This document shows positions 3,434 through 32,492 of a stretch of 32,492 bases of DNA, one piece after another (within the stretch, counting starts at the first letter, position 1; every line of letters starts with the position of its first letter). A program made the position numbers and the translations under genes. The DNA is from Clostridiales bacterium (GTDB lineage: Bacteria > Bacillota > Clostridia > Christensenellales > Borkfalkiaceae): the NCBI GenBank assembly GCA_015069285.1, contig SVIX01000010.1, positions 1-32,492 of the forward strand, written 5' to 3'. The notes beneath the pieces are model-generated. The model was not told the origin of the DNA. It saw only the letters and a program-made list of their open reading frames with translations, and ran no database searches.

Positions 3434-3490
3434 ATATATTTTCTCCTTGTGTTTAAGGTTATTTAACGAATATAAATTAAATAGGGCGAC

Positions 3491-3651
3491 GTCACGGAAC
3501 GCGGTTGATTAGTGCAACGCACGCTTTTACGAGGAAAACGCAAGAAAGACAAGCATTTTCCAAGGGCGCATACCCTCAGTGGTATGTAACCGAGGAAAAT
3601 GCGCAGTATTTCGTAGGGTTTTTCCGTAAAAAATCAACCGAGTGACGGGAC
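3491..3651. repeat. Palindromic structured element, copy 1, in the ileS leader
   Basis: A 161-base element bounded by 20-base inverted arms, GTCACGGAACGCGGTTGATT (3491-3510) and its partner at 3632-3651, matching at 16 of 20 positions. Inside are nested stems: TTTTACGAGGAAAAC (3525-3539) with GGTTTTTCCGTAAAA (near 3617-3631); GCATTTTCC with GGAAAATGC; and an apical CATACC / GGTATG stem with loop CTCAGT. Between the outer and inner stems the strand CAAGAAAGAC (3541-3550) is unpaired. The same layout and the same unpaired motif recur at the right edge of the window with different stem sequences. It is transcribed within the ileS 5' leader. Whether it acts as RNA or as DNA, for example a miniature mobile or REP-like element, cannot be decided here. 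Confidence 0.8.
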
Positions 3652-3658
3652 AAGCCCG

Positions 3659-7039: not shown

Positions 7040-7045
7040 AAAATT

Positions 7046-7272
7046 CAAATCTGCGGTGTTCGGAGTTTAGCGTTTAAGCGGAATCCACATTGTATATTCG
7101 GGAGCGGTTTATTCGTGGCGATAGACAAGGTCTGTATTTATACGGAAAGTTCGAGGCGTCAAGATACGGCACCCACCTGCTAAAAGCGGGTTCACCCTTC
7201 GCTAAGGTGCGGCACAGGCGGATTCCTTTTAACTATGAGTTCACCCACTTCACGATGAAGTGGGTGTTTCAT
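7046..7272 (+). ncRNA. Candidate 6S RNA (ssrS-like)
   Basis: A transcript of about 220 bases between a perfect promoter and an intrinsic terminator, with no plausible protein. Features recalling 6S RNA, which binds sigma-A RNA polymerase: a 5' GCGGTGTTCG segment (compare GAGATGTTCGC in E. coli 6S), and near the 3' end a CACCCACCTGC...GCGGGTTCA hairpin like the CACCUU...AGGGUUCA arm of 6S. A distal helix closes GGAATCC (7081-7087) with GGATTCC (7220-7226). The expected pairing of the extreme 5' segment with the 3' end was not found, so the family assignment is tentative; a structured RNA gene of some kind is much more certain. Confidence 0.55.
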
Positions 7273-18614: not shown

Positions 18615-18983
18615 TGGTGGAGGTGGTGAGAATTGAACTCACGTCTTACTCGGCTACCAAAAAACTTTCTACATACTTATTTTATCTATTATTTCTTACC
18701 CAAACAACGCGGATAAACACGCTTTGCTCGGCGCAGAAAGCTAAATAATCTTTATAAAACACTTTCCGATTTTATAAGGATTTTTCCGTCTTCATAACGC
18801 CACGACCCCAACCGACGGATAAATCGGGCGTGACGATTCGTTTAAAAACGAAGTTACGCTGCTAAAGCGTAGTTTGCATTTCTATCTGCATTTAAATTTA
18901 ATCGGACCGTTTTTAACGCAGTCTTTCCGCTCTGCGGTATGCTTATTCTTTCGCGCACCGGCAATCGAATCCGGTACACCCCC
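18615..18983 (-). ncRNA. ssrA: tmRNA (transfer-messenger RNA)
   Basis: Rescues stalled ribosomes and tags the nascent protein for degradation. The 3' end has the T-arm GAGTTCAATTCTC and CCACCA; CCA is encoded at 18615-18617. The 5' end GGGGGTG pairs with CACCTCC, leaving a third-position G-U pair, the alanyl-tRNA synthetase identity signal. The tag frame is at 18854-18889 (minus strand): GCA GAT AGA AAT GCA AAC TAC GCT TTA GCA GCG TAA, encoding ADRNANYALAA, to which the tmRNA-carried alanine is added. The mature length is about 369 bases. Its promoter and terminator are separate from trkH upstream. Confidence 0.98.
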
Positions 18984-31005: not shown

Positions 31006-31061
31006 CCGCGATTTTAAGGGGATAAATTTGCGTTCAACGCATACCTGTATACCCCGTTTTC

Positions 31062-31170
31062 GTAGCGGACGCGCCTTTGCACCGCAGAAAACGACGGATA
31101 AAATTACCGTTTTCTTTCGTCCACCGACAACGTCCCGTTCGGTGACACTTTACGCGCAAAAGGCTACTCA
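31062..31170 (-). promoter_or_regulatory. Tetrahydrofolate (THF) riboswitch
   Basis: Minus strand motifs in order: GAGTAG, TTTTGCGCG, AAGTGT, CACCGAACGGGACGTTGTCGGTG, GACGAA, then GCGGTGCAAAGG and TCCGCTAC. The helix GTAGC (31163-31167) / GCTAC (31062-31066) closes the aptamer and CCTTTTGC / GCAAAGG forms the next stem. These conserved blocks and their order are those of the THF aptamer that governs folT and folate genes in Bacillota. An extra A/T hairpin (GAAAACG ... CGTTTTC, near 31083-31118) extends one arm. Confidence 0.92.
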
Positions 31171-31185
31171 ACTTTTGTTAGACTC

Positions 31186-32366: not shown

Positions 32367-32374
32367 TTGGCTAT

Positions 32375-32492
32375 GTCATAGAGAATGGTTGATTAACAAA
32401 AAATTTATTTTTCTGTGTTTTTACGAGAAAAATGCAAGAAAGACAAATATTTTGTGAGCGCGCGTACTTGACTTGTACGAAAGCGAGCAAAA
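32375..32492. repeat. Palindromic structured element, copy 2, cut by the window edge
   Basis: Begins GTCATAGAGAATGGTTGATT (32375-32394), matching the left arm of copy 1 (GTCA..GA....GGTTGATT). After a diverged A/T-rich stretch it has TTTTACGAGAAAAATGCAAG and AAGAAAGACAA, nearly identical to copy 1. The next stem is changed but still pairs: ATTTTG with CAAAA at the window edge, and an apical CGTAC / GTACG where copy 1 has CATACC / GGTATG. The right half lies beyond the window. Confidence 0.78.

Follow-up and report, generated by a model that had tools for sequence, protein, structure and literature searches.

The window and its two element copies

The window, by which we mean the whole stretch of DNA that was analysed (32,492 nucleotides), is the entire contig C33, and its last base is position 32492. 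Rfam recognizes three ordinary housekeeping RNAs in it: 6S RNA at 7045-7228 on the plus strand, tmRNA at 18615-18983 on the minus strand, and a THF riboswitch at 31061-31173, also on the minus strand. Two copies of an interspersed element are present as well, both on the plus strand, one complete (3484..3657) and one truncated (32369..32492), the latter comprising the left 124 of about 182 bp before it is cut by the contig end. Because the window is a whole contig that ends where assembly stopped, within a repeat, the break falls inside the element; other contigs of the same genome also start or end within an element (C5, C18, C20, C26, C55, C64, C65, C12, C32, C67, and C74).

The copy at the contig end had been recognized in the original prediction, and GGTTGATT, CAAGAAAGACAA and both inner stems were found as described there; the start given, 32375, was however six bases too far in, the element beginning at 32369 with GGCTATGTCAT. 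It opens with the left terminal inverted repeat GGCTATGTCATAGAGAATGGTTGATT (32369..32394, plus strand, one mismatch to the pattern), followed by an AT-rich variable stretch (32395..32417, plus strand) that forms a small hairpin in the folds of many complete copies, not of all. The 5' arm of the outer core stem, TTTTTACGAGAAAAAT, occupies 32418..32433 on the plus strand; its partner ATTTTTCCGTAAAAA lies past the contig end, and the pairing is backed by covariation among complete copies. The CAAGAAAGACAA internal-loop strand comes next (32435..32446, plus strand), its GAAA and AC pairing with UUUC and GU of the missing part, and then a variable stem and apical hairpin of type A (32447..32492, plus strand) from which the last bases are missing. 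The stems that can be seen within this last stretch are ATTTTG (32449-32454) with CAAAA (32488-32492) and CGTAC (32463-32467) with GTACG (32475-32479). Among 15 complete copies of the same stem type elsewhere in the genome, CAAAATA comes next in 13, AATCAACC is found in 13, and both are found in 11, while the remaining ones have substitutions or a deletion at these positions.

The complete copy is diverged and has other end sequences; it is flanked by ATTAAATA and GAAAAAAA, and comparison of these flanks revealed no 8-bp target duplication. Its core (3527..3629, plus strand) is matched by model R1 with 114.7 bits (E 2.6e-21) and by model R2 with 111.4 bits (E 1.3e-21), this copy being itself a member of both model alignments, and it holds CAAGAAAGACAA at 3541-3552. 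The two copies had been taken for one and the same element; they belong to different subfamilies, the ends of the first copy being different.

A family of MITEs with fixed ends and a variable number of cores

The expectation that the genome carries many copies is amply borne out. The core model R1 gives 39 matches at E<=0.01 in the 1.41-Mb assembly (77 contigs, 76% complete), and a genome-wide search with the core motif, proposed in the original prediction as a check, recovered the exact 12-mer CAAGAAAGACAA 35 times, against a single occurrence of a reversed control. One of the 35, on C77, has no surrounding element and is therefore taken as a chance occurrence. In a search of the window alone, allowing up to two mismatches, the three matches obtained were not above the chance expectation of 3.2; two of the three are exact.

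Complete copies measure 157-283 bp and have terminal inverted repeats of about 26 bp and an 8-bp target duplication, a typical copy carrying GGCTATGTCACAGAGAATGGTTGATT at one end and AATCAACCAAGTGACGTGACAGAGCC at the other. The fixed ends, GGCTNTGTCAC...GGTTGATT and AATCAACC...GTGACAGAGCC, surround a small AT-rich stretch and zero, one, or two cores of about 100 nt. Copies with a single core span 157-183 bp and those with two cores 282-283 bp, the latter combining types A and B in either order or type A twice; core-less copies of 88, 88, and 63 bp are also found, together with shorter remnants. The target duplication is exact in 11 of 19 complete distinct copies (TATTTAAA, AAAAAATA, and TTCTTTTT are examples) and has one mismatch in four more, while shuffling the right flanks among the copies for 10,000 rounds yielded a mean of 0.73 and a maximum of 5 of 19. 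Targets are AT-rich, and several copies, judged by eye, sit in the T-run behind a terminator-like hairpin.

With terminal inverted repeats, a target duplication of fixed length, and many copies too short for a transposase, the family is one of MITEs by its ends, duplication, and size; by sequence it belongs to no named family. It works like a BOX-type MITE, the number of cores varying (0, 1, or 2) between fixed ends. A known Rfam RNA was also considered as its identity. Rfam 15 placed no family over the element at the gathering threshold, its hits lying elsewhere both in the window (three) and in 14 related loci (one), and when five loci were searched at E<=5 the sole overlap with a core was sau-41 in locus L002, with 25.3 bits against a threshold of 80 (E 2.8). 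Transposition of the IS200/IS605 or REP (Y1/HUH) kind proceeds without target duplication, and membership in these groups was rejected on the 8-bp target duplications observed.

Some relatives show further variation in build. In genome G044, three loci (L473, L474, and L475) of 443-453 bp have the apical loop of their core interrupted by an insert of about 265-270 bp whose ends pair with each other, so that a second hairpin element seems to be nested there; L480 has a shorter version of this insert. In genome G028, one frame (L476 and L477) holds two different cores in tandem, the second with a low R2 score and, by eye, resembling the cores of more distant Clostridia.

The fold of the core

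The core fold is conserved. The stem changes between copies had been read as compensatory, and the core alignments bear this out through covariation. For 14 cores from five genomes, both sides had changed in 12 of 37 pairs, with 35 cells against 11.6 in shuffled alignments and 0 of 500 shuffles as high, and one of five covariation measures was reached by 39 of 500 shuffles. For 34 cores from 30 genomes of the genus, both sides had changed in 25 of 35 pairs (107 cells against 24.3 shuffled), and all five measures were reached by 0 of 500 shuffles. Since the core alignment was fitted to a model it leans to structure, and related rows inflate the covariation counts, but given the size of the effect these two factors are unlikely to be its full cause. 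Sliding the partners by one to three columns lowered the paired fraction from 93% to 30-50%.

The motif CAAGAAAGACAA had been described as wholly unpaired; half of it, instead, pairs with GUAUUUC past the contig end, and this pairing too covaries. Its GAAA and AC pair with UUUC and GU on the 3' side, GC being replaced by AU in four sequences and AU by CG in four, and the GAAA/UUUC helix appears as AAAA/UUUU in some rows and as GCAA/UUGC in others. A link to a transposase, suggested in the original prediction, is upheld by the terminal inverted repeats and 8-bp target duplications of the copies. The motif, being largely paired, does not have recognition as a single unpaired strand as its simplest interpretation. 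Bases of the internal loop are conserved as well. The motif strand has 65 G-U pairs against 22 A-C mismatches, which points to this strand, as RNA or as single-stranded DNA, as the folded one. The same counts lend indirect support to the earlier suggestion of activity as RNA, and we consider that the core probably acts as RNA.

Orientation relative to GC skew

In the genome itself, all 27 distinct elements (32 of 32 cores) have the motif on the C-rich strand; these lie in 21 regions, mostly of 20 kb, with some whole short contigs and the window (p 1.5e-8), and the count covers 32 of the 34 genuine motif copies, those on C20 and C55 being left out. Three core-less or degenerate copies within the same regions are also on the C-rich strand. 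With all 27 elements on this strand, their orientation appears to follow replication, GC skew serving as a proxy from which replication direction is inferred. Gene direction does not explain the orientation, because 6 of the 27 elements oppose the local coding majority while none opposes the skew; an orientation set by transcription is disfavoured for the same reason.

Relatives within the order conform to the same rule, 78 of 83 having the motif on the C-rich strand as judged from flanks of up to 1.5 kb per side, which are short and mix replication skew with gene skew. Among the other species of the genus the share is 47 of 48 (p 3e-13); it is 18 of 19 for the remaining genera of the family (p 8e-5, with L184 counted in the family) and 13 of 16 for the remaining families of the order (p 0.02). 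The 83 were taken from 95 relative rows, the 12 dropped being four tandem neighbours and eight weak matches; ten of these 12 are also on the C-rich strand (4/4 tandem neighbours and 6/8 weak matches). The usual view of bacterial MITEs is that they are remnants of insertion sequences, each confined to its species; the present family keeps to GC skew, and so apparently to the direction of replication, with hardly an exception within the order.

Orientation tied to the replication fork via the beta clamp has been reviewed for Tn7, IS200/IS605, and several IS families (PMC5371812). It is likely, in our assessment, that the feature at the contig end is the left part of a non-autonomous MITE moved in trans by a fork-sensitive DDE transposase, with a core that acts as RNA. 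The transposase would be encoded elsewhere and would insert the element at passing replication forks, and the core would act as RNA of the motif strand. The primary paper behind the reviewed fork-linked orientation bias is reportedly Gomez 2014.

The same strict agreement with GC skew would also be expected if the fold worked as single-stranded DNA, the hairpin being recognized or extruded at the fork during transposition, as in IS200/IS605 or REP, with no RNA role. The long imperfect hairpins of the element fit this account, as do inverted pairs of cores 104-108 bp apart in some Gammaproteobacteria, which resemble REP doublets. We nonetheless consider it unlikely, since 8-bp target duplications and inverted ends are unlike IS200/IS605 chemistry, and since by the logic of replication the exposed lagging-strand template would be G-rich and so the complement of the strand that tolerates G-U pairs.

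Orientation and fold could alternatively be by-products of purifying selection, copies that were reversed, or that had the stabler hairpin in the lagging-strand template or in mRNA, having been lost. That the G-U-tolerant strand is never the G-rich strand in the genome (27/27) agrees with this, and hairpins are more often antisense to genes: where both flanking ORFs (crude ORFs) had the same direction, the motif was antisense in 22 of 30 cases. Ordinary mRNAs would then contain the folded strand less often than its complement, which counts against the preferred reading of the core as RNA of the motif strand. On the other hand, 27 of 27 is very strict for a modest difference in stability, copies between two ORFs running in the motif direction still follow the skew (5/6 in the genus, 1/2 in the family), and stability alone leaves the conserved loop bases unexplained. 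Selective loss as the whole explanation therefore strikes us as improbable, and insertion by a fork-sensitive transposase is the reading that we prefer.

The orientation rule is not a universal property of the core. In five gammaproteobacterial genomes, which do not follow it, the C-rich strand carries only 6 of 23 copies of the shorter core described below (p 0.035 for a bias to the other strand). A rule confined to one lineage is as expected if the transposase, and not the core, sets the orientation.

Distribution among relatives

Matches to R1 occur in 42 of 57 genomes of the genus, the genome itself included, and reach 39 in the latter, 33 in G047, 28 in G008, and 22 in G044. At E<=0.001, the genomes matched by R2 number 64 of 251 in the family, spread over 10 of 18 genera, and 46 of 396 in the order, spread over 27 of 142 genera, with a best E below 1e-6 in 14 of the 396; the family and order draws share genomes, and matches close to the cutoff are uncertain. 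E-values from R1, R2, and R3 (the model of a shorter core, below) are rough, and weak matches are lost to the stricter filtering applied in the large searches. With full-length R2 at E<=1e-5, a class-wide draw of 391 genomes gave matches in the own genome only, and none outside the order. In other genera the end sequences differ yet still pair, as seen by eye in L171, L169, and L178, and tandem arrays with a spacing of 155-166 bp were found at L206, L176, and L186.

The occurrence of the same core in frames with different ends raises the question of whether it began as an independent small RNA gene or ribozyme and was amplified after capture by a MITE. Its conserved internal-loop bases would suit such an origin, as would the lack of an Rfam family at threshold, but no single-copy gene at a fixed position was recognized in the contexts inspected by eye, and we regard this origin as quite unlikely. 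We continue with the preferred reading, a MITE mobilized in trans whose core acts as RNA.

The candidate mobilizer

Duplications of 8 bp are typical of the ISL3 family. The right MITE end begins with GGCTCTGT, which is also the start of the ISL3 ends of the genus, the end GGCTCTGTGTCAAATG being present at five of six ISL3 loci of the genus, at one of these with a mismatch; the agreement, however, stops after about eight bases. An ISL3-like nature of the transposase is thus weakly suggested by the shared end sequence, and the enzyme that moves the MITE would perhaps be of ISL3 type. An ISL3 transposase was found in 3 of 57 genomes of the genus and is absent from the own assembly, which is 76% complete, and no autonomous partner was found among the ISL3 transposases of the 57 genomes. 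With about eight end bases shared and a transposase in 3/57 genomes, ISL3 was rejected as a proven mobilizer and is kept as a lead.

A shorter core in other phyla

The core fold is preserved across the order, and a shorter form of it recurs in the multicopy elements of other phyla. A search pattern built on the apex matched at least 118 stretches with palindromic elements; among the matches listed, record titles include Myxococcales, Bacteroidetes, Gammaproteobacteria, Verrucomicrobia, Lentisphaeria, Deltaproteobacteria, Elusimicrobia, Desantisbacteria, and others. In several phyla the shorter core is part of multicopy hairpins with other ends. When 30 loci were folded, the order of loops was, by eye, mostly the same, the lower part being missing in L270, L296, and L305. 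The cross-phylum consensus is approximately AAGGCGCGASGAGGGCGCAUAC-loop-GUNUGUAACCGASGAGCAACGC, with GC/AA and GA/GA internal loops, each present twice, and a lower internal loop CAAGG / CAACGCAG.

A model of this shorter core, R3, was built only from other phyla, using 12 of 16 extracted sequences, from six groups. In its alignment both sides had changed in 5 of 16 pairs; two of five covariation measures were reached by 37 and 168 of 500 shuffles and the other three by none. R3 detects the core of the first window copy at 3545..3610 (plus strand, 34.9 bits, E 1.4e-7), while in the truncated copy only the apex is matched (32456-32486, E 0.68). Of the 20 genomes behind the apex-pattern loci, 19 have R3 matches, often many (134, 33, 28, 22, and 15). 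Among 369 genomes drawn from the class of G631, a genome titled Gammaproteobacteria, 57 have matches, G631 included. Because the cross-phylum set was selected by the apex pattern, the apex is shared by construction, and independent support therefore comes only from the lower internal loop, from the R3 matches in unselected genomes, and from the finding of genus cores by R3. Inverted short-core pairs with the REP doublet-like spacing of 104-108 bp are found in G805, G984, G1012, G927, G763, and G794. The most short-core matches of the 20 genomes, 134 in 5.4 Mb, are in G644, the genome behind L270, which is titled Myxococcales.

It is possible, although we put this forward only tentatively, that interspersed palindromic elements from many bacterial phyla, unlike one another in their ends, lengths, and probably transposases, have one folded core in common. 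Such a core would be a module that colonizes different frames and is kept for a near-universal partner, such as RNase III, RNA polymerase, the ribosome, or the fork, with BOX, Correia, and perhaps ERIC as local members. The similarity across phyla may reflect either common descent or convergence. If it is truly homologous or convergent, it amounts to a testable claim that a common host factor reads the hairpin, and if true this could help to explain the presence of short interspersed palindromes such as BOX, Correia, and ERIC in so many bacteria. In the literature searched, which took in few subscription papers, neither a shared core nor a MITE with an orientation fixed by replication was found described.

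Relationship to known interspersed palindromes

ERIC, from Enterobacteria, resembles the present element in being an imperfect palindrome with a central hairpin (L481). The best overlapping match of R3 to one E. coli ERIC copy had E 0.5 and covered the apex only, a result that leaves ERIC unsupported as a member.

Correia (NEMIS/CREE, Neisseria) is likewise a MITE with inverted ends, its ends and target duplication being other than those of the present element. The Correia end word was absent from the element loci examined, and a text search of the literature for Correia core words yielded one unrelated paper. Transcripts holding a Correia element are described as being cleaved by RNase III (PMC10969869). 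By analogy, the core of the present element may be kept because a widespread host factor handles its hairpin, RNase III-type processing being a first guess, and such handling would make insertions tolerable or keep copies mobile.

BOX elements of Streptococcus, with the structure boxA-(boxB)n-boxC, are similar in being interspersed, mobile-looking, and folded when transcribed, and in having a variable number of cores between fixed ends. In S. suis, the same boxB has been reported between different end modules (PMC3049150). BOX differs from the present element, whose core is about 100 nt, in host and in end sequences, the two having been compared by build alone. The published BOXA1R primer contains GGCAAGGCGACG (PMC7291552), which is close to the word GGCAAGGCGCGACG of the cross-phylum core and provides no more than a lead. 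This rep-PCR primer has been used to fingerprint unrelated bacteria and phages (PMC7291552), and its closeness to the cross-phylum core might be the reason that it works so widely.
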